A stretch of 38,231 bases of DNA from Thermoplasmata archaeon (GCA_021816745.1 JAKAWY010000005.1:1-38231); one strand, 5' to 3'. Positions 5,010-17,849 are shown, counted from the first letter of the stretch. Made by a program: numbers and translations. The notes: generated from the sequence alone by a model not told the origin.

Positions 5010-6140
5010 TTGAATGATTCAGAAACTGATAAAATGAGATCACTTTTTCTCAAATACTATTCCAGGGTTGAGAATCTATATGTCAATGAATTAAACATGA
5101 GAGAGATAGGATACATTCCTTTCAAGGGTTCCATGATCCGCCATCAGAGAGTTGATCCAGGTAATTCTGGAAACGGGATGAAAATATTTGCCATAAGAAA
5201 TGTCCCGAGACATCTCTATAATTCTGTGGCTTTTTATAAAAAACCTGATGAAAGGATAATGAAGGAGAAAGAATGGCAGGGTGCAGAACTCATTTTTGAT
5301 CTTGATGCTGATCACATTGAAGGGAGTTCATCCATGAGTTATGAAGAAACACTTGACGAGGTTAAGAGGCACACAGATCGGCTTATTAACCATTTTTTGG
5401 TTGGAGAACTTGGAATAAGTGCGGATTCCATGTCCCTTTTCTTTTCCGGAGGGAGGGGGTACCATGTTCATGTAACCAAGGAGGGAATGCTGGAACTTAA
5501 TTCTGATCAGAGAAGGGAAATTTCAAATCTTATCAGAGGGGAAGGGTTGAAGGCCAAGGAATTCACAGAGGTTGCCAAATTAGGAATTCCAAGCGGAAAC
5601 GGATGGAAAAACGAGATTGATTCATTATTTACTGACGAATTAAGGATAGCCATGGAATCCAATGAACTTGAAGATCCGTTGCTTAAAAGGATTGGGAAAC
5701 ATTATGAAGACAGGAATAACCTAAAGCTGATGAATAAAAAGAAAATCTTGGTAAAAAATGGCCCGGAAAAATACAGGAATCTGTTAAAGGATGAACTTGA
5801 ACTGCTGGACAGGGTAATTCTAAATTTAAAAAATTCAATTTCCTGTGAAATAGATGAACCTGTCACCACAGATACGCACAGGCTTATCAGATTCCCTAAC
5901 AGCCTTCATGGAAAGACCGGATTCATGGTCAAGAGGATAAATATAGAGGATCTTGGAAAATTTAACCCGCTTGATGAGAGCATACCGGAAGCATTCATGA
6001 ATGGAGAAATGACTGTAAAAGCTAAATCCCCTTTCACTATTAATTTGATGAAAAGAAGATATATCATAGAAGGAATAGTTGATGTGCCTACATACGTGGC
6101 AGTATATACAGTCCTTTCAGGCAAAGGTACATTGGAATGA
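5010..6140 (+). CDS. priS: DNA primase small (catalytic) subunit PriS
   Basis: Makes primers for DNA replication as a PriS-PriL heterodimer; PriL is not in this window. The metal-binding acidic triad begins at D97 and D99 in LIFDLDADHIEG. The SGGRGYHVHV motif (about residues 148-157) and the TDTHRLIRFPNSLHG motif near 285-300 are characteristic of archaeal/eukaryotic primases. 376 residues is slightly longer than average for the archaeal subunit. The frame opens with TTG at 5010; the first in-frame ATG is codon 9 (5034). Promoter geometry favours TTG as a leaderless start, while ATG at 5034 would still keep the whole domain. It is divergent from the protease gene. Confidence 0.92.
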   Translation: MNDSETDKMRSLFLKYYSRVENLYVNELNMREIGYIPFKGSMIRHQRVDPGNSGNGMKIFAIRNVPRHLYNSVAFYKKPDERIMKEKEWQGAELIFDLDADHIEGSSSMSYEETLDEVKRHTDRLINHFLVGELGISADSMSLFFSGGRGYHVHVTKEGMLELNSDQRREISNLIRGEGLKAKEFTEVAKLGIPSGNGWKNEIDSLFTDELRIAMESNELEDPLLKRIGKHYEDRNNLKLMNKKKILVKNGPEKYRNLLKDELELLDRVILNLKNSISCEIDEPVTTDTHRLIRFPNSLHGKTGFMVKRINIEDLGKFNPLDESIPEAFMNGEMTVKAKSPFTINLMKRRYIIEGIVDVPTYVAVYTVLSGKGTLE

Positions 6141-6224
6141 GTAGTTAATAATAATTAAAATCAGTTGATAGTAAAATGCATAAATAAATATAGGGATTAT
6201 GAATCATGAAAATAGTGAGTAAAT

Positions 6225-6644
6225 ATGGAATTTGTAAAATCTAAAACAGTTGAAAACCTAAAGGCCGGTTTCGCAGGAGAGAGTCAGGCAAACAGGAGAT
6301 ATCTTTACTTCGCGCTTAAAGCAGACGAAGAGGGCTATCAGGAAATTGCACAGGTTTTCCGATCCACCGCAGATGGTGAAACAGCTCATGCCTTTGGCCA
6401 TTTGAAGTATCTGGCCCCTGTTGGAGATCCCGTTACTGGAGAACCAATTGGATCCACTGAGCAGAACCTGAAATCTGCCATTGCCGGGGAAACGTATGAA
6501 TACAGCCAGATGTATCCTGGATTTGCAAAAGATGCAAGAACAGAGGGATTCGAAGAGATTGCCCACTGGTTTGAGGTCCTTTCCAAGGCAGAAAAGTCCC
6601 ATGCAACAAAATATGAAAAGACACTTGCCTCAATGAAGCAGTGA
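6225..6644 (+). CDS. rubrerythrin-type diiron protein without rubredoxin domain
   Basis: Four-helix ferritin-like protein of the rubrerythrin family, whose members reduce hydrogen peroxide in anaerobes and microaerophiles. The diiron ligands are all visible: E19 (GESQANRRY), E52 and H55 (GETAHAFGH), E89 and E92 (GETYEYSQMY), and E123 and H126 (KAEKSHATKY). At 139 residues it stops after the diiron domain, so there is no C-terminal rubredoxin Fe(Cys)4 domain, as in sulerythrin-like short forms; electrons must come from a separate donor. An AT box at about 6182-6193 could be the promoter. A DUF3501 gene starts 10 nt downstream, a pairing seen in many genomes. Confidence 0.95.
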   Translation: MEFVKSKTVENLKAGFAGESQANRRYLYFALKADEEGYQEIAQVFRSTADGETAHAFGHLKYLAPVGDPVTGEPIGSTEQNLKSAIAGETYEYSQMYPGFAKDARTEGFEEIAHWFEVLSKAEKSHATKYEKTLASMKQ

Positions 6645-6645
6645 A

Positions 6646-6650
6646 GTGAT
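6646..6650 (+). promoter_or_regulatory. Shine-Dalgarno GTGAT before the DUF3501 gene
   Basis: GTGAT is complementary to the ATCAC of the archaeal 16S 3' end and sits four nt before ATG 6655. It is a better reading than GTG at 6646 as the start codon, because alba has the same arrangement (GTGAT, four nt, ATG). Confidence 0.6.
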
Positions 6651-6654
6651 CATA

Positions 6655-7224
6655 ATGAATTTTATACGGGTGGAGGATGTTATTCCTCCTGCTGATTATT
6701 CAAAAATAATAAATGAAGACCGTGAAAAGGTCATTGCACTGAAAAAGAAGAGACGTATTACCACAGAAAATTTCAGCTTTCTTTTCGAGAACATGGAAAC
6801 CGTGCTCAACCAGGTTAACGAGATGATGTTTGTGGAGAATGTCACAGATCCGTCAGAAACAAAACATCTTGTTGAAACCTACAATACACTGCTGCCTCAG
6901 GAAAATTTCCTGAGTGTTTCAATGTTCATTGAGATCAGTGATGAAAAGGAATTGCTGAAATCCATGCCATTGCTTTCAGGAATTGAAAAATCAGTATACC
7001 TTATATTCGGTAATCACGAAATAAGAGCCACTCCTGAAGAGGGAAGATCCACGGAAACACTTGAGTCAACACTGCAATACCTTAGAATTTATTTCACAAA
7101 GGAAGATGCGGATTTGTTCAAAAAATCCAAAAATGCCTTTTTATCAACAAAACACAAAAATTACAGTGAAACAGCTTTGATAAGTGGTTCTCTTCTTGAA
7201 GAACTGAAAAGCGAAATATATTAA
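6655..7224 (+). CDS. DUF3501 family protein
   Basis: A 189-residue protein matching my recollection of DUF3501: an N-terminal VIPPADYSKI segment, then VIALKKKRRI, FLFENMETVLNQVNEMM, the TYNTLLP motif, and late GRSTETLESTLQYLR. Its biochemical function is not known. DUF3501 genes commonly sit next to rubrerythrin, often with an Fe-S oxidoreductase, and here the rubrerythrin stop is 10 nt upstream, so one transcript and a shared role in peroxide or redox defence are likely. That role is inference; the Fe-S partner is not present. The start at 6655 is chosen because the upstream GTG at 6646 is the first triplet of a Shine-Dalgarno sequence. Confidence 0.82.
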   Translation: MNFIRVEDVIPPADYSKIINEDREKVIALKKKRRITTENFSFLFENMETVLNQVNEMMFVENVTDPSETKHLVETYNTLLPQENFLSVSMFIEISDEKELLKSMPLLSGIEKSVYLIFGNHEIRATPEEGRSTETLESTLQYLRIYFTKEDADLFKKSKNAFLSTKHKNYSETALISGSLLEELKSEIY

Positions 7225-7246
7225 ATTATAATTTCATTAATCCCTG

Positions 7247-8155
7247 ATGATAGAACTAAATGCTCTTACCAGAACTTACGGAAATAGTGAGAGCGGGATC
7301 TTTAATATATCAGGAACGTTGAAAACTGGTAAAATTTATGGAATTGTAGGAGAGAATGGCGCTGGCAAAACAACCCTCCTAAAGACCATTTCTGGAATAT
7401 TGAACCCTGATTCTGGCAGTGTAATTATCGACGGATATGAAAGTATAAGGGAAAGAAAAGAGGCACTTACAAGAATTGGCTTCATGCCTGACGGAATAAT
7501 TGTAAATAGTGATAGCCCAATTATAGAAATGCTTGCATACTATGGCCAGACAAGGGGATTAAGCAGGGAGGATTCCATGGAGAAGGCCACAGTATTGCTT
7601 GCGAGATTTGGCATTGATGGCAGGCTTGTCAGATCCTCCCTTAGAAGAATGTCACTGGGGCAGAAGAGAAGAAGCATGCTGGCCATGAGTTTAATGAATG
7701 ATCCAATGAATATTCTTATGGACGAGCCTTACAATGGTTTTGATCCCGATGGGATGAGAATGGTCAATGATGTGATCACGTTTGAGAAGGGCCGTGGTAA
7801 AACAGTCATCGTTTCTTCTCACATTCTAAAGGAACTGGAAAGCATTGCTGATGAGGTAATTTTCATCAGCAACGGAAAAATAAACGATCAGGTAGATGTT
7901 AAAAATATATCTAAAACTGGTAAGCGGAAAGTTTACCTTATTATTTCCAACGCTGATGCAGACCTGCTTGGACTCCTGGAAGGCTATGGCACAGTAAGGC
8001 AGATTGGAAACCAGTTCGAAATTAGCCTTGATTCAGGTAATAACATAAAACCGGAACAGATTAATTCTGCCATGGTGAAAAGTGGATATGAAGTTTCATC
8101 AATCAGAGTTGAGAATCCCTCATTAGAGGATATTTATTTTTCAAAAAAGAAGTAA
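7247..8155 (+). CDS. ABC transporter ATP-binding protein, no adjacent permease
   Basis: A 302-residue ABC ATPase with Walker A GENGAGKT (35-42), signature MSLGQ (135-139), Walker B NILMDE with catalytic E160, and switch His H192 (SSH). The C-terminal 90 residues resemble the extra domain of export or drug-resistance ATPases of the ABC-2 group. Such proteins normally energise a membrane permease, but no membrane gene is adjacent: upstream is DUF3501 (22 nt) and downstream a convergent gene. The AT-rich run at about 7221-7234 is 20-25 nt before the ATG, so it may have its own leaderless promoter. Its substrate is unknown and the partner must be encoded elsewhere. Confidence 0.9.
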   Translation: MIELNALTRTYGNSESGIFNISGTLKTGKIYGIVGENGAGKTTLLKTISGILNPDSGSVIIDGYESIRERKEALTRIGFMPDGIIVNSDSPIIEMLAYYGQTRGLSREDSMEKATVLLARFGIDGRLVRSSLRRMSLGQKRRSMLAMSLMNDPMNILMDEPYNGFDPDGMRMVNDVITFEKGRGKTVIVSSHILKELESIADEVIFISNGKINDQVDVKNISKTGKRKVYLIISNADADLLGLLEGYGTVRQIGNQFEISLDSGNNIKPEQINSAMVKSGYEVSSIRVENPSLEDIYFSKKK

Positions 8156-10510: not shown

Positions 10511-10581
10511 CTTATCAGCCGAGGAGTATTACTTCAATGCAATTTAATCTTATTAAGAAAAAATTTGATTAAATTTGGGTA

Positions 10582-11781: not shown

Positions 11782-12564
11782 ATGGAAAATGAAGTGGAAG
11801 TTTTCGCCGGTCATAAGGATAATTATGAAGTAAAAGGTTTTTTTGCCAGCGGCGGAATGGGAGATATTTTTGACGCATTAGATTCGAGAGGCAATGAGGT
11901 TCTTATAAAGGTACCAAAAAAATTCAATGCAGGAAGAACAGACCCGATGAATATACAGGTATTGAGCGAAATCGAGAACATGAAACTGCTTATTCATCCA
12001 AATGTGGTTAAGTATGTAGACAGCGGAACCAGGGGCAATAAGCCATTTCTTGTAATGGAAAAGATTTATGGAACCAGCCTGAAAGAACAGGTTGAAGATG
12101 TGGACTACAGTTATGAACTTGCAACCAATGTATGCAAAGGAGTCTTATCTGCACTCAGTTATCTTAGATCAAGAAGGGTTGTTCACAGGGATATCAGCCA
12201 TTTGAACATTATTCTTTCAGAAGGAATTCCCAAGATCATAGATTTCAGCACATCCATAAGAATTCCTGAGGAAAATGACTTTTACAGGATCAAGGGTAGC
12301 AGGATAGGTACAGAGAATTTTTCCGCACCTGAACAGTTGAACGAAGGAACCGTGTATATAGATTCAGACATATATTCACTGGGAGCAGTGACATATTATT
12401 CATTGACAGGATTGAAACCTGAGAAGTCCAAGAAAGATCTTAAGCAGATTGAAAGATTCGAAGGCCTTCCTCTTTATTATATAATTAACAACTCCCTTCA
12501 GGATAAAAGATCTGACAGGATAAGAGACCTCAATATTTTTGAGCAGAAATTGAACGGGGCATGA
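11782..12564 (+). CDS. Hanks-type (eukaryotic-like) Ser/Thr protein kinase, variant motifs
   Basis: A 260-residue cytoplasmic kinase domain with no membrane or sensor region. It shows a glycine loop (FFASGGMGDIF, 20-30), ATP-contacting K43 (LIKV), an alpha-C Glu near 63-65, catalytic HRD at 135-137, N142, metal-binding D154 and APE at 182-184, followed by DIYSLGAVTYY (helix F). Two motifs deviate: the DFG triplet reads DFS, and the HRDxKxxN loop reads HRDISHLN, so the usual Lys is Ser. The catalytic Asp, Asn and Lys remain, so activity is plausible. It is divergent from the Lrp operon and followed by tRNA-Arg. Substrates are unknown. Confidence 0.9.
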   Translation: MENEVEVFAGHKDNYEVKGFFASGGMGDIFDALDSRGNEVLIKVPKKFNAGRTDPMNIQVLSEIENMKLLIHPNVVKYVDSGTRGNKPFLVMEKIYGTSLKEQVEDVDYSYELATNVCKGVLSALSYLRSRRVVHRDISHLNIILSEGIPKIIDFSTSIRIPEENDFYRIKGSRIGTENFSAPEQLNEGTVYIDSDIYSLGAVTYYSLTGLKPEKSKKDLKQIERFEGLPLYYIINNSLQDKRSDRIRDLNIFEQKLNGA

Positions 12565-12642
12565 AACCAGTCAATAATCTTTAGCAACGTATATTTTACC
12601 CGTCAAGATAAAATGTAAATTGAAGTGAGTCATATGTGACCT

Positions 12643-12716
12643 GGGCCCATGGGGTAGCCAGGATATCCTGATGGCCTTCGAAGCCGAAGACCCGGGTTCG
12701 AATCCCGGTGGGCCCG
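12643..12716 (+). tRNA. tRNA-Arg (TCG anticodon)
   Basis: The acceptor stem GGGCCCA/TGGGCCC is perfect, the T arm CCGGG-TTCGAAT-CCCGG is perfect, and the anticodon loop CTTCGAA gives TCG, with discriminator G. The anticodon stem is weak: position 27 A faces 43 A and 28 T pairs with 42 G. CCA is not encoded. A hairpin with a T run follows. Confidence 0.93.
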
Positions 12717-12724
12717 TGACTGGC

Positions 12725-12753
12725 AAAGTGTAAAAACACACTTTTTTATTTTT
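12725..12753 (+). terminator. hairpin plus T-run after tRNA-Arg
   Basis: AAAGTGT (12725-12731) pairs perfectly with ACACTTT (12738-12744) across a 6-nt A-rich loop, followed by T-rich sequence. The T-run alone would suffice for archaeal termination. 12754-12845 holds no gene that I can see. Confidence 0.6.
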
Positions 12754-12845
12754 GCAAATGAAACAATAGTGGAAATTTTCGTGGTACTCTCCTTATGAAA
12801 TCGTAAAAAAAGTATTAACTTAAATTGGAAGGCTAATTTGGAAAA

Positions 12846-13214
12846 TCATGGCCCTATACTGAGATGCTCATGTAAAATCTGCCACCCGTCGTTAATTAAT
12901 CTGAGAATGGTGGTACCCCTTCCTTCAGCAACAGTCAGTTTATCATCAATATAGCCCTCCGACCTGAAATTGTACACGCATGCTGCATAATCGTTATTTT
13001 CTATTATCCATTTCAAATTAGTGAGCAGGTATTTTTCATCCTTGATCTGTTCCCATGTATTTTCAAAGGCTTTCCTGATCTTGTCTTTTCCAATGAATGT
13101 ACCATCGCTGAACCAGAAAATAGCATTTTGGCCTATGAATTCCTCAACCAGGTTATAATTCCTGGAATTTGCGGCAGATTCGTACCTTTTCATAAACTGT
13201 TCGGGTGATTCCAT
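12846..13214 (-). CDS. SnoaL/NTF2-like domain protein
   Basis: A 122-residue single-domain protein with the cone-shaped NTF2/SnoaL-like pattern: an N-terminal helix (FMKRYESAANSRNYNLVEEFI), the FWFSDGTFIGKDKIRKAFENTW segment, then beta strands ending in GRGTTILRLINDGWQILHEHLS. The family includes isomerases, hydrolases and small-molecule binding proteins, so no reaction can be assigned. There is no signal peptide. It stands alone between tRNA-Arg and tRNA-Gly on the minus strand. Confidence 0.8.
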   Translation of the reverse strand: MESPEQFMKRYESAANSRNYNLVEEFIGQNAIFWFSDGTFIGKDKIRKAFENTWEQIKDEKYLLTNLKWIIENNDYAACVYNFRSEGYIDDKLTVAEGRGTTILRLINDGWQILHEHLSIGP

Positions 13215-13389
13215 TTGTTCCTGGCTACAATACCGTATTCATGATATAGATGTTTCTAAAATAATGGCTAAATCCTAAGTTTTGAAAGATAAAGCCCATG
13301 GAAATGATTATATTATTCAATGTTATAACACAAAAAATCCCATAGCAATCCCTTTCCCCATTATGCAGATATCAGGGATTTTGAGAAAA

Positions 13390-13462
13390 GCGGGTGTGGT
13401 GTAGCCTGGTAACACGCGAGCTTGCCAAGCTCGTGCCTCGGGTCCAAATCCCGGCACCCGCA
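13390..13462 (+). tRNA. tRNA-Gly (GCC anticodon) with C at position 55
   Basis: The acceptor GCGGGTG/CACCCGC and anticodon stem CGAGC/GCTCG are perfect; loop TTGCCAA gives GCC and the variable loop has 4 nt. The T arm is TCGGG-TCCAAAT-CCCGG, so position 55, almost universally T (pseudouridine in RNA), is C. Otherwise it is a sound tRNA. Its 3' end is duplicated at 16682-16697 with the canonical T at the matching position, suggesting this is the target site of an integrated element. Confidence 0.9.
13445..13460 (+). repeat. direct repeat copy 1 (tRNA-Gly 3' end, att-like)
   Basis: CAAATCCCGGCACCCG, inside the T arm and acceptor stem of tRNA-Gly, is identical to 16682-16697. The base just before it is C here and T in the other copy. 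Confidence 0.75.
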
Positions 13463-13831
13463 TAACCATAAAGATCCGATGCGTATTATTTTAACCTGCT
13501 AAATTATGTAGTTATTATTTAATAGAGATCTCCTGATTTATAAATATATTTTTATCATTATTTTTATTTAGGAATTATCAATAATATTTCATTCAAAGAA
13601 TGTTTTTCAAACAACAATTCTAAAACTAAATACCATTATGAGAATGGGTTGTCAGTTTTCCATCCTTTCTCAATATTCTTGGGGGGCTCGTATAACTCTT
13701 CCAAAAAAAGAATGAAGAACTTACAGAGAACAAGCTATCTAAACAAATGTTCAATCTTTGTTGGGTTTTCTTGTTTCCTCCCCATTCATAAGAACATCCC
13801 TTCTTATGTATGGAGAAATAAGCGGCAGTTT
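13463..13831. other. AT-rich stretch without a supported gene
   Basis: 369 nt downstream of tRNA-Gly. A reading frame from 13649 runs into the membrane-protein gene, but its first 61 codons look like translated spacer: no domain, odd composition and no promoter box at the expected distance. I see no RNA gene or transposase here. If the island is an integrated element, this is its left end. Confidence 0.5.
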
Positions 13832-14197
13832 ATGCTGGGAAAATTCCCATTCAAAAAAAGGCAAAGTAAACCCGATGAAAGGAGGGTGAAACCAATAATT
13901 GGACACCGGACTCCTGAACTGATCTCCCCTCTCCATATTTTTTCACATCCGTTGGGAGTATCCTACGGTGTCCATATCGGGTCGATGCATGTACTTGGTG
14001 GGATTTTCCTCTTGTCACTCCTTGCAGCTTTTGAGGTATTTTCAATACCTGCTGCAAAAGGTATTATCAATTTGTTTGGGTTTACAAAGGGGTTGGCAGG
14101 CTGGACATGGATAGGAGTTGCCATGCTAAGCGGTGGAATTGCTGTGGTACTCCACAAAGAAGAAGAAAACGATAAATATAGGAATGGGATAAGATAA
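13832..14197 (+). CDS. small two-helix membrane protein
   Basis: A 121-residue protein that I do not recognise. The first 45 residues are basic and His-containing (FPFKKRQSKPDERR), followed by two hydrophobic helices, about residues 50-70 (MHVLGGIFLLSLLAAFEVF) and 88-106 (GWTWIGVAMLSGGIAVVL), and a charged tail. ATG 13832 is preferred over the open frame's first ATG at 13649, because the protein-like composition begins here and TTATGTAT is centred 24.5 nt upstream. A 33-codon membrane-protein gene follows 2 nt downstream. It lies inside the tRNA-Gly island. Confidence 0.6.
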   Translation: MLGKFPFKKRQSKPDERRVKPIIGHRTPELISPLHIFSHPLGVSYGVHIGSMHVLGGIFLLSLLAAFEVFSIPAAKGIINLFGFTKGLAGWTWIGVAMLSGGIAVVLHKEEENDKYRNGIR

Positions 14198-14199
14198 AT

Positions 14200-14301
14200 A
14201 TGTATTCCTCCAAGAAGAAGATTGACTACACGTTAATATTCGGTTATTTTCTCATAGCCGGAGGTACATTAATCCTAGCATACGTTTTTGGCTTGATCTA
14301 A
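14200..14301 (+). CDS. 33-residue single-span membrane peptide
   Basis: A short frame beginning ATG TAT TCC and ending in TAA at 14299-14301. It encodes a lysine-rich head (MYSSKKKIDY) and one hydrophobic helix (LIFGYFLIAGGTLILAYVFG). It begins 2 nt after the stop of the two-helix membrane protein, which argues for a shared transcript and possibly a shared complex. A basic head followed by one span is typical of small membrane subunits, but no function can be assigned. Confidence 0.5.
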   Translation: MYSSKKKIDYTLIFGYFLIAGGTLILAYVFGLI

Positions 14302-14415
14302 ACAGTATTCTTTATTTTTGTTACTGCAGTATCAAACATCGTTTTCTTTTTCCTTGAGAGATCTCCTTCCAATATTTTTAAAAAAAAAGAGTTGTGATAA
14401 ATTTATTTTTATATA

Positions 14416-16203
14416 TCAAAGAGCAATCATGTTGATGTACGGATTTGGCATGTTTACCTCTGCGGATGAACCGTTGGGAAACTCCCATGTTACAGCCTGT
14501 GTACTGTAAAAGTATGTAGTGAACCCTGGATCTTGACCTGTCGCAAAATTCTGCAAATTTATATCAGAAAATGATGAAGTTTGCCATGTAAATGTGTAAG
14601 TAACAGTGGCCGTCTGTGCCGCTGAAAGGGCAAGCCCGATGCCTGCCAGGATTAATCCAACTGCGGCCACCGCCAATCCAACTCCTCCCGTTGGTATAGC
14701 TAATGCCAACCCGATCAATGCAATATCTATTCCGAGGCCTGCGACTCCCAATGCATAATTTCCTGACATGAATGCGTTAATACCTCCTCCTTGCGAAGCA
14801 TTCAAGCTTTCTTCCATTGCCTTTATGTAATTTGTTGAAGAGGTACTGAATGTTCCAGATTGAAAATCGTAGTTGAATGTGTTAGTTTGCCCTCCTTCGG
14901 GCACGTTTACCGTGTCTATGATCTTATGTGCGAAGATTGTGTATAAGATGTACCCAGTATCATTCACATACCTGTTAATCAATGTTACATTCGATGTAAA
15001 GTTTGATGGCAGGTTATAGGCTTTGGTAGGAGAACCAGTATAAATGTCAAGAGAATCATTGTTTCCGTTCAGTACTTTCACCGTGGTCTGGTTGTATGTT
15101 CCGATATATTCACAGTAGCTCCCGTCAACATGAAAGACCTTGATTACCTGAAAAATGATGCCATACTCGAAATGTTGCAATACTGCCATGGAGATGTTAG
15201 TCTGTGGGTTATTATGGCTGATACGGCTACTTTGAGGTTCCACTCCAATTGATGAGAAGTCAAAGGACACGTTCTTCCCAGTTCCCCATGCGGTATTCGA
15301 ACCAACAATAGTTCCGCTGCTTGACTGGTCGCAGGTCTGAACGCTTGTGGTATTCACCCATCCAGAACTTATGTATTTAATCGTTTCTGCCACTCCAGTC
15401 ATACCATAGCCATTTGTTATCTGTGCTGCATTGACTATGTATGGGCCCCAGTATGTTGTGACCTTTGAGCTCACACTATTCTCACAGTTCAGGTTTCCTC
15501 CTGGAGGGCCAATCTGCCCAGCATTTTTAGCATGAATGAAACTGGTAGTGGCGTTGCTCATGTTGAACACCACCGGCTTCTGGTTCATGTTGAAACCCAT
15601 GTCAAGATGGAAAGTGTATGCGTATAACCCTGTATTGAATTTGTGAGACAGTGGAGAAAAGGGAAGGGTGTTGTAATACCTGTACACATACATTTTTCCC
15701 TGATATGCAAACTGGTACTGTGCATCCACATCCAGCGACTGGATCATGTTTTTTCCGCTGTTTCCTGAAAACAGTGTAGAATACTCTGTGATGATATTAA
15801 GAAATGATGAACTGAGAGCACCATTTATCATTCCACTTTGACTCGCATGAGATGCGTTGAAAAGTTCAATGTATGATCCATTGTTAGTTACGGACTGTGA
15901 TCCTTGAACCTCAAGATATGGCGAAATGCCAAACACCCTCACAGAAACATTGGACATGTTGTATGAGTAAAAAGGGGACGAAGAAGAGATGGAATTTTGT
16001 CCGGAAAGGGCGGGAATCACTGCAGGTGATGGATTTCCAGAGAATGACACCTGGAAAGATACGTTAGGATTGTGGTATGAATCCTTTGGTGTCATGATGA
16101 CGTATGCTGAAAATATTGAAACTGAAACCATAACAATTACAACTGCTATGACAACAGGCCTTTTCAGGTATGTTTTCAATCTTTTACTGTTTTTATCCTC
16201 CAT
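14416..16203 (-). CDS. large surface protein with N-terminal anchor and Gly/Ala-rich hydrophobic hairpin
   Basis: A 595-residue protein, function unknown. A cytoplasmic basic head is followed by one span (about residues 16-37, VVIAVVIVMVSVSIFSAYVI), then about 440 residues of extracellular Asn/Ser/Thr-rich sequence with many N-x-S/T sequons and four cysteines (in NCENS, TCDQ and YCEY contexts, plus none in the tail). Near residues 480-530 there is a long Gly/Ala/Leu-rich stretch (GVAGLGIDIALIGLALAI, then GGVGLAVAAVGLILAGIGLAL), which looks like two tightly packed helices. The last 65 residues are again beta-like. The ATG at 16203 is preferred over 16260 because the TATA-like run at 16221-16230 is about 22 nt upstream and the 19 extra residues are unlike a signal. 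It lies inside the tRNA-Gly island. Confidence 0.7.
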   Translation of the reverse strand: MEDKNSKRLKTYLKRPVVIAVVIVMVSVSIFSAYVIMTPKDSYHNPNVSFQVSFSGNPSPAVIPALSGQNSISSSSPFYSYNMSNVSVRVFGISPYLEVQGSQSVTNNGSYIELFNASHASQSGMINGALSSSFLNIITEYSTLFSGNSGKNMIQSLDVDAQYQFAYQGKMYVYRYYNTLPFSPLSHKFNTGLYAYTFHLDMGFNMNQKPVVFNMSNATTSFIHAKNAGQIGPPGGNLNCENSVSSKVTTYWGPYIVNAAQITNGYGMTGVAETIKYISSGWVNTTSVQTCDQSSSGTIVGSNTAWGTGKNVSFDFSSIGVEPQSSRISHNNPQTNISMAVLQHFEYGIIFQVIKVFHVDGSYCEYIGTYNQTTVKVLNGNNDSLDIYTGSPTKAYNLPSNFTSNVTLINRYVNDTGYILYTIFAHKIIDTVNVPEGGQTNTFNYDFQSGTFSTSSTNYIKAMEESLNASQGGGINAFMSGNYALGVAGLGIDIALIGLALAIPTGGVGLAVAAVGLILAGIGLALSAAQTATVTYTFTWQTSSFSDINLQNFATGQDPGFTTYFYSTQAVTWEFPNGSSAEVNMPNPYINMIAL

Positions 16204-16392
16204 AAATTCATAATCATTTATATTATATAAAATTATTTTACATATATTCATTAATATCATATATTATGCGTATTTACTGTTTCTTCATTGAATCTGAAGT
16301 TTGTATATCTATATTTCGCACAGTTTGATCAATGACTAAATGTGTAGGACTAACAAGAATGTCGAAAAATTCATTTTGAGATGGCAAGCATG

Positions 16393-16628
16393 CTATATGA
16401 ATGGCAGTATCCTGATCCTTTCCCAATAAGGGGACTTTTGTCCATGTCTGCATTGAGCCATGGATCCATCATGTTCCCCGGGGGGTGACTCAGTAGCCTT
16501 CTGGGCAAAGAGGTGATGCAGGGTATTTTCTGAATGGATGATATTGTACCTTCTTTTTATTCCTGCCCTCTTCTTGCTTTTTGCAGTGCTGATCTGAGTT
16601 CATCTTCTATGGAATTTTTATAAATCAT
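16393..16628 (-). pseudogene. possible frameshifted gene remnant
   Basis: On the minus strand ATG 16628 begins a 23-codon frame ending ...ALQKARRGQE-stop. A one-nt shift at that point gives about 53 further codons (RRYNIIHSENTLHHLFAQKA..., ending SPYWERIRILPFI-stop at 16393). Together they read like one short protein with a frameshift. I do not recognise a family. Its place beside the displaced tRNA end would suit a decayed element gene. Confidence 0.3.
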
Positions 16629-16681
16629 AGAACAGATTTTTTGCATTATATTTAGAATGTTACCGCATTAGACTTATTATT

Positions 16682-16697
16682 CAAATCCCGGCACCCG
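16682..16697 (+). repeat. direct repeat copy 2 (displaced tRNA-Gly 3' end)
   Basis: Exact 16-nt match to 13445-13460. With the preceding T it reads TCAAATCCCGGCACCCG, i.e. T-loop TTCAAAT with canonical T55. No other part of a tRNA is present here. Confidence 0.75.
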
Positions 16698-16747
16698 AAT
16701 ATTTGTTTCCAAATCTCATCTTTTTGTCGAAACAAGGATCGTTAATC

Positions 16748-16755
16748 TTTATATC
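16748..16755 (+). promoter_or_regulatory. TATA-like box for the egsA operon
   Basis: TTTATATC lies about 36 nt before ATG 16788, allowing a short leader. It is the best A/T box between the island edge and egsA. Confidence 0.35.
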
Positions 16756-16787
16756 GAAAGATAACATGTAATGCAGAACTGATCAGG

Positions 16788-17849
16788 ATGGAGTTCGACA
16801 AATTCAGATTTATGCAATTCACCAGAGAGGTATATGTCGGGCATGGTGTTATAAACAAAGTACCTGATGTTGTGAATAAAAACCTTATGAAAGGCAATGT
16901 GGCCATTATCACAGGGCACAATACATACAAGATAGCCGGAAAGGAAATAGCGGATCTTCTGGAGGACGCATCCATTGAGAATTCAATTTTTATTTGTGAA
17001 AGCGCTGATGAGGAGAATTTGAACAGGGTTAATGCGGAAATAAAGGAATATGGTGCAGGCATTGTTATTGGAGCAGGGGGAGGAAGCAAAATTGACCTTG
17101 CAAAAAAGACGGCTTATAACCTGAACATTCCATTAATCAGCATCCCGACCACCCCAAGCCATGATGGTATCGCTTCACCAAGGGCATCCATTAAGAGAGG
17201 GAAATGGTCTGTTTCAGAAGAGGCAGTAATGCCAATTTCTATTATCGCGGATACATACATTATGTCAAAAGTCCCATACAGATATTTAAAAGCCGGAGCA
17301 GCTGATGTCATATCAAACGAATCAGCACTCCTGGACTGGAAACTTGCAAACAGGATTAAAGGGGAAGAATTCAGCAGCAGTGCTGCTGCCATAGCGGAGT
17401 ACGCTTCAAAGGAACTTGTGGAAAGAGCACACCTTATTATGCCGGAGGTGGAAGAGTCTGTCTGGCTTGTAACAAAACAGATTCTGGCATCTGGAACCTC
17501 AATGGCAATTGCAGCATCATCCAGACCTGCCAGCGGAAGTGAGCATCTTATTGCGCATGCTCTCGAAATGCTGGCCCCAGGTACTGCAATACACGGTGAA
17601 CAGGTTGCTCTCGGTTGCATTGTCTCGCTTTTCCTTCATGGAAAGGACTGGAAAGCCATGGAAAATGTGTTCAGGAAGATAGGAATATCAACCAGGGCCA
17701 GCGACTATGGAATAAATGATCATATAATGATCGAGGCATTAAGGACCGCCCACAGGATAAGACCAGAAAGATTTACAATCCTAGGAGAAGTTGACCTTAG
17801 CTTCCACGCAGCAGAATCTGCCCTGAAAATAACAAACATCATCGAATGA
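16788..17849 (+). CDS. egsA: sn-glycerol-1-phosphate dehydrogenase
   Basis: Reduces dihydroxyacetone phosphate to sn-glycerol-1-phosphate, giving the backbone with archaeal stereochemistry for ether lipids. At 353 residues it matches the family. Dinucleotide-binding GAGGGSKID spans about 95-103 and TTPSHDGIASP about 121-131; the zinc ligands are D173 (AADVISN), H253 (GSEHLIAHAL) and H269 (TAIHGEQVALG). It heads a tight operon: UPF0179 begins 15 nt after its stop, followed by a YchF-type GTPase. A long antisense frame at 17114-17620 is a shadow. Confidence 0.96.
   Translation: MEFDKFRFMQFTREVYVGHGVINKVPDVVNKNLMKGNVAIITGHNTYKIAGKEIADLLEDASIENSIFICESADEENLNRVNAEIKEYGAGIVIGAGGGSKIDLAKKTAYNLNIPLISIPTTPSHDGIASPRASIKRGKWSVSEEAVMPISIIADTYIMSKVPYRYLKAGAADVISNESALLDWKLANRIKGEEFSSSAAAIAEYASKELVERAHLIMPEVEESVWLVTKQILASGTSMAIAASSRPASGSEHLIAHALEMLAPGTAIHGEQVALGCIVSLFLHGKDWKAMENVFRKIGISTRASDYGINDHIMIEALRTAHRIRPERFTILGEVDLSFHAAESALKITNIIE

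Follow-up and report, generated by a model that had tools for sequence, protein, structure and literature searches.

Why does the 3′ end of a tRNA-Gly gene recur 3.2 kb downstream in the genome of an acidophilic archaeon, and what is the DNA that lies between the two copies? We addressed this question in a contig of 38,231 nucleotides (C11, taken whole and referred to here as the window), which belongs to a 1.295-Mb genome assembly that is 79% complete and whose host is most likely a member of the genus Cuniculiplasma (Thermoplasmatales). As we set out below, the 3.2 kb are very probably the eroded remains of a once autonomous integrative element of about 11 kb, which would have entered by classical integration at tRNA-Gly(GCC). 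The features on which this reading draws are as follows, with the basis for each in parentheses.

13390-13462, plus strand: tRNA-Gly (anticodon GCC), the target gene (ARAGORN; Rfam RF00005)
13445-13460, plus strand: attL core, the tRNA 3′ tail CAAATCCCGGCACCCG (exact repeat, uniqueness in the genome)
13473-13491, plus strand: probable arm-type site for the integrase, GATCCGATGCGTATTATTT, beginning 12 nt inward of the core (motif shared by relatives with identical spacing)
13687-13942, minus strand: remnant of the C-terminal part of a left-end gene, frame broken (65% identity over 54 aa)
13952-14197, plus strand: 5′-truncated gene for a small protein with two transmembrane segments (two-TM protein; homologs conserved only from about residue 41)
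14200-14301, plus strand: gene for a 33-aa single-TM peptide (tblastn)
14416-16260, minus strand: intact gene for a 614-aa surface/membrane protein (p614), inferred cargo (homologs in Thermoplasmatales; host-like codon use)
16400-16581, minus strand: what is left of a dead tyrosine recombinase gene of the 413-aa type, two frames of which correspond to residues 246-278 and 285-307 (DNA and protein matches to intact relatives)
16656-16674, minus strand: perhaps a degenerate arm-type site in inverted orientation, AGTCTAATGCGGTAACATT (weak evidence; an ungapped match of 11/19, no better than chance)
16682-16697, plus strand: attR, the displaced tRNA 3′ tail (exact repeat of CAAATCCCGGCACCCG)

The Duplicated tRNA Tail and Its Site in Related Genomes

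An initial annotation had reported that the last 16 nt of tRNA-Gly are repeated exactly 3.2 kb downstream, and this proved correct: the tail CAAATCCCGGCACCCG of tRNA-Gly(GCC) has an exact copy on the same strand, with 3,237 bp separating the two and egsA (16788-17849, plus strand) lying beyond the displaced copy. When the two tails were extended to 20 nt there was a single difference (GCATA in the tRNA, GAATA in the displaced copy). Matches to the tail are not frequent, since the 1.295-Mb genome contains two exact copies, both in the window, with about 0.0001 copies per genome expected from base composition and 0.07 chance matches expected in the window when up to three mismatches were allowed. 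The 14-nt core of the tail, RATCCCGGCACCCG, was present once in each of nine genomes of the same genus and twice only in the genome of the window; two more assemblies of the genus, both incomplete, had no copy. A search of 12500-17000 against Rfam returned no family besides tRNA. In a genome of another family, the tRNA-Gly tail also occurs twice, 206 bp apart (L147; G057 C14:4821-5040), possibly as a very short remnant or a tandem tRNA.

Related genomes were checked for a tRNA-Gly gene joined directly to egsA, and this empty site was found in three of the same genus (G003, G007, and G008; egsA 89-90% identical), where tRNA-Gly lies 226-237 bp before egsA with no insert. The corresponding distance in the window is 3,325 bp. 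In G008, as in the window, a tRNA-Arg gene lies upstream of tRNA-Gly. On the right flank, alignment with the relatives persists only just before egsA, and the spacer between attR and egsA (90 bp) is shorter than the gap of about 230 bp between tRNA and egsA in the relatives, so that this flank has changed as well. On the other side, the spacing from tRNA-Arg to tRNA-Gly is about 670 bp in the window and about 410 bp in G008, and a second small insertion or loss is therefore possible there; a SnoaL/DUF4440-like gene (12846-13214; Pfam E = 2.9e-11) occupies the interval between these two tRNA genes in the window.

Fragments of tRNA genes do occur, and a repeat of merely 16 nt might be thought to have arisen by chance, or by partial duplication of the tRNA, with no relation to the genes between. 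We attach hardly any probability to this idea, given the very low number of copies expected per genome, the empty site, and two observations described below, i.e., a well-placed integrase remnant and an integration at the same site in G004.

The Integrase Remnant, the Element Ends, and Intact Relatives

The initial annotation had stated that no integrase was visible, and an earlier search of the window with XerA-like and tRNA-Ala integrases from the family had indeed returned nothing. The statement was nevertheless wrong: a broken remnant on the minus strand surfaced, only when the DNA of the whole element was compared with relatives, through matches to two 413-aa open reading frames in G009 and G004. 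The G009 protein belongs to Phage_integrase (PF00589, E = 6.6e-25), and the G004 integrase is 93% identical to it. The remnant in the window comprises 56 aligned residues in two frames and adjoins the displaced tRNA end. The N-terminal 245 residues are unrecognizable, the box II stretch HLFRHTR is absent, and a lysine stands at the position of the tyrosine in TRTYVHLS, which we take to be the nucleophile of the integrase. The integrase of the window is dead.

In G009, an intact element of about 10.6-10.7 kb lies on contig C1, with tRNA-Gly(CCC) at one end and CGGTTTCCGCATA, as a displaced copy, at the other. It encodes a 402-aa left-end product, a primase/helicase-like protein of 856 aa, and the 413-aa integrase, and also has small genes. 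Its left-end gene is on the minus strand at the tRNA, and its integrase gene is also on the minus strand with the 5′ end towards the displaced tail; the two corresponding remnants in the window have the same order and strands. In G004 (C31, a partial contig), the intact integrase is bounded by CGGCACCCGCATA, the tail of tRNA-Gly(GCC), i.e., of the same tRNA as in the window. G009 provides the empty counterpart of the G004 site: there, tRNA-Gly(GCC) runs straight into the flank seen in G004 (neighboring protein 99.5% and M24 peptidase 97% identical between the two genomes). The family of the 413-aa integrase is therefore seen at the target used in the window. A further relative, an 11.5-kb element on contig C41 of G042, lies between tRNA-Pro and a displaced 16-nt tail and contains a homologous left-end gene, a primase, an HNH protein, a two-TM protein, and a different integrase. 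The elements of this ~11-kb family are mosaics. G042 also contains another integrated element, in which an integrase gene and tRNA-Ala(GGC) share 19 nt at their 3′ ends (L067:1396-2339).

These results support the defective integrated element that the initial annotation had proposed, in that there are empty sites, a tail repeat not explained by chance, intact relatives with the same layout, and integration at the same tail in G004. "Defective" was the right word. The alternative in that annotation, "satellite-like," fits less well, since an integrase of its own belonged to what is now the remnant.

Archaeal integrases prefer the 3′ ends of tRNA genes as targets, and in the suicidal types, which are common among them, the integrase gene is split on integration (PMC8371274). 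Suicidal integration of the SSV type would have left the gene divided between both ends of the element, and in one locus of the same family (L069) a tRNA-like tail does lie inside the integrase gene. We nevertheless regard this as extremely improbable for the window, where no integrase fragment was found on the tRNA side and the split gene expected at both ends is thus not seen; moreover, the integrase gene of both the G009 and the G004 element is unbroken and internal, and the tRNA core precedes its start codon. Classical, non-suicidal integration is the mode that we favor, because the att site does not split the integrase gene, which is internal to the element and has its 5′ end on the attR side.

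The left end of the element tells of decay as well. The remnant at 13687-13942 was matched to a 397-aa protein that adjoins tRNA-Pro in G042, the homolog of the 402-aa product in G009, both of them encoded beside a tRNA. The decayed frame mentioned in the initial annotation is real. The open reading frame that begins at 13649, or at 13832 in a shorter reading, is a fusion product, in which the first ~37 codons (counted from 13832) are antisense to the left-end gene remnant. With residues numbered from 13832, conservation among homologs of the two-TM protein, which has a basic N-terminus and two hydrophobic helices, sets in only at about residue 41; an internal deletion therefore appears to have fused the two genes. 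The two-TM gene has a patchy, mosaic distribution in the family, with a 94%-identical piece of 216 bp in G011, and the 33-aa peptide adjoins it in five other loci (L064, L067, L069, L070, and L073; 42-97% identity by tblastn). The primase/helicase proteins of G009 and G042 had no tblastn match in the window at E = 0.01, and their gene has presumably been deleted from the element.

Near the core, GATCCGATGCGTATTATTT in the window, AGTCCGATGCGTGTTCTTA at tRNA-Leu in the same genome (L109), and AGTTCAATGCGTATAATGG at the left end of the G009 element all start 12 nt inside the core. The left motif of the window matches at 16/19 positions, a score that roughly 0.1% of 60-nt stretches drawn at random from the window attain. 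The integrase-side ends of G009 and G004 carry an inverted AGTTCAATGCGTRTCATTA at 14 nt; AGTCTAATGCGGTAACATT in the window is near the position of that site, with a match that is itself within chance. When 61 genomes were scanned for a 15-nt form of the motif, with a pattern drawn from four known element ends, seven places were found, i.e., those same four ends and three places elsewhere that are not beside a tRNA end. From its position and similarity, GATCCGATGCGTATTATTT is likely to be an arm-type site, which the integrase would have bound.

The same genome contains a related locus on contig C32 (L109:6269-6673), where the DNA after tRNA-Leu(TAA) is 77% identical over 160 nt to the stretch after tRNA-Gly, and a second, colinear piece of 51 nt follows. 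No displaced tRNA-Leu tail was found at this locus, which is probably a sibling remnant, more decayed than that of the window.

The course of events may be reconstructed as follows. An autonomous element of about 11 kb, with a tyrosine integrase of the 413-aa type, would have entered through a crossover between its attP and the 3′ end of tRNA-Gly(GCC). The attP end would have made the tRNA gene whole again, with its former 16-nt tail displaced to the far side. Internal deletions and mutations would later have cost the element its replication genes and inactivated the integrase, one deletion joining what was left of the left-end gene to the truncated two-TM gene, and p614 would have remained as the single intact gene. 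The original size and the order of decay in this scheme are our inference.

The Surface Protein p614 and Its Relatives

The frame of p614 is open over 614 codons with host-like codon use, and the protein has an N-terminal TM segment and a hydrophobic segment near residues 505-545. Its family is patchy across the Thermoplasmatales. No relative was found in Pfam, PHROG, NCBIfam, or PDB, and the structure predicted from an alignment of 15 sequences (mean pLDDT 41.6) was too poor for a fold search. One relative of p614 matched the MakA toxin (E = 0.0099, far below the cut-off), probably by chance through a hydrophobic stretch, and we rejected this candidate. The open frame of p614, set against the broken or truncated element genes around it, suggests that the gene was either kept by selection or arrived late. 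p614 is absent from the intact relatives (G009, G004, and G042), and it may therefore be a later insertion. The reading adopted here is that it entered as cargo of the element.

Homologs of p614 are found near tRNA genes in other genomes. In L138 (CP009479.1), from another genus, a homolog is the only gene in a 2.5-kb island (5500-8146) that has tRNA-Thr(CGT) at one end and two near-adjacent displaced tRNA-Thr tails of about 44 and 38 nt at the other, and in which no integrase remnant was detected. A third, diverged copy of the tRNA-Thr tail lies near 10557. In both L084 and L085, a tRNA-Leu gene is followed 0.3-0.7 kb downstream by a homolog, with no displaced tail detectable at these two loci. 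Together with the window, these represent 4 of about 19 p614-type loci that are less than 1 kb from a tRNA, a modest excess (p about 0.02). The solitary homolog in L138 and the proximity to tRNA genes would fit a non-autonomous satellite or cargo mini-element, in which p614 and its neighbors were mobilized in trans between att sites and which was always small. We consider this improbable for the window, where fragments of an integrase gene and of a left-end gene at the two ends point to derivation from a full-size element.

The two-TM protein was examined as a possible capsid or other virion protein, as would mark a spindle-shaped or other archaeal provirus; comparison with PHROGs, viral contigs, phage records, and PDB gave no informative match. 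Scans of viral contigs with single proteins yielded nothing, and an alignment of two-TM proteins showed too little conservation to serve as a query. Neither p614 nor a relative of the two-TM protein had a counterpart in phage records. At other loci, the two-TM protein is accompanied by a Zot-like ATPase, a zincin-like protein, a PKD-type surface protein, and a tyrosine integrase. It is conceivable, but in our judgment rather unlikely, that the two-TM family and these partners mark an undescribed group of viruses or plasmid-viruses of the Thermoplasmatales, in whose virions the two-TM protein would be a membrane component and which would have moved the p614 surface proteins repeatedly, as cargo, from one tRNA site to another. 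Modules at L064:456-6628, L068:1-7506, and L067:1449-14501, which are partly syntenic, combine the two-TM protein with a PKD-type surface protein, a zincin-like protein, small membrane proteins, and either a Zot-like ATPase or an HNH protein, and may represent an undescribed virus or plasmid family of this order.

Comparison with Known Elements

A decayed element integrated at a tRNA gene is a well-known kind of event. The island in the window resembles the classical archaeal tyrosine-recombinase elements (PMC8371274) in its tRNA 3′-end target and in the intact integrase of its relatives, and differs from them in that its own integrase is dead. With the tRNA-gene islands defined by Islander (PMC4383910) it shares a tRNA gene, a cognate 3′ fragment at the opposite end in the same orientation, and a length (3,237 bp) above 2 kb and within the 2-200 kb range of that method. 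It fails the integrase open reading frame filter of Islander, having only the broken remnant at 16400-16581, and is therefore a decayed island rather than an active one. The unoccupied site in G003, G007, and G008 is a check that we added outside the filters of Islander.

Islands associated with tRNA genes and integrases are known in Cuniculiplasma divulgatum and other acidophilic archaea (PMC5155288, PMC12302457), with reported sizes of 4.2-92 kb for acidophile islands (PMC12302457). The window shares the host group and the association with tRNA and integrase; however, we did not find its island, the ~11-kb relatives, or the att sites described in these reports. Compared with the ~11-kb elements of G009 and G004, two genes survive in the window, only as remnants: the integrase gene, which is at the att side and points its 5′ end to the core, and the left-end gene, which adjoins the tRNA on the other strand. 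The primase/helicase and small genes are missing. No description of this family was found in the literature searched, outside which most subscription journals fall, and the element of the window and its ~11-kb relatives appear to be undescribed.

Comparison among genomes places the integration event, which is present in one species and absent from three close ones, and links it to a family of intact ~11-kb elements that target tRNA-Gly genes in Cuniculiplasma. A surface-protein gene that outlived the element around it represents a plausible route by which such archaea may acquire variable surface proteins.
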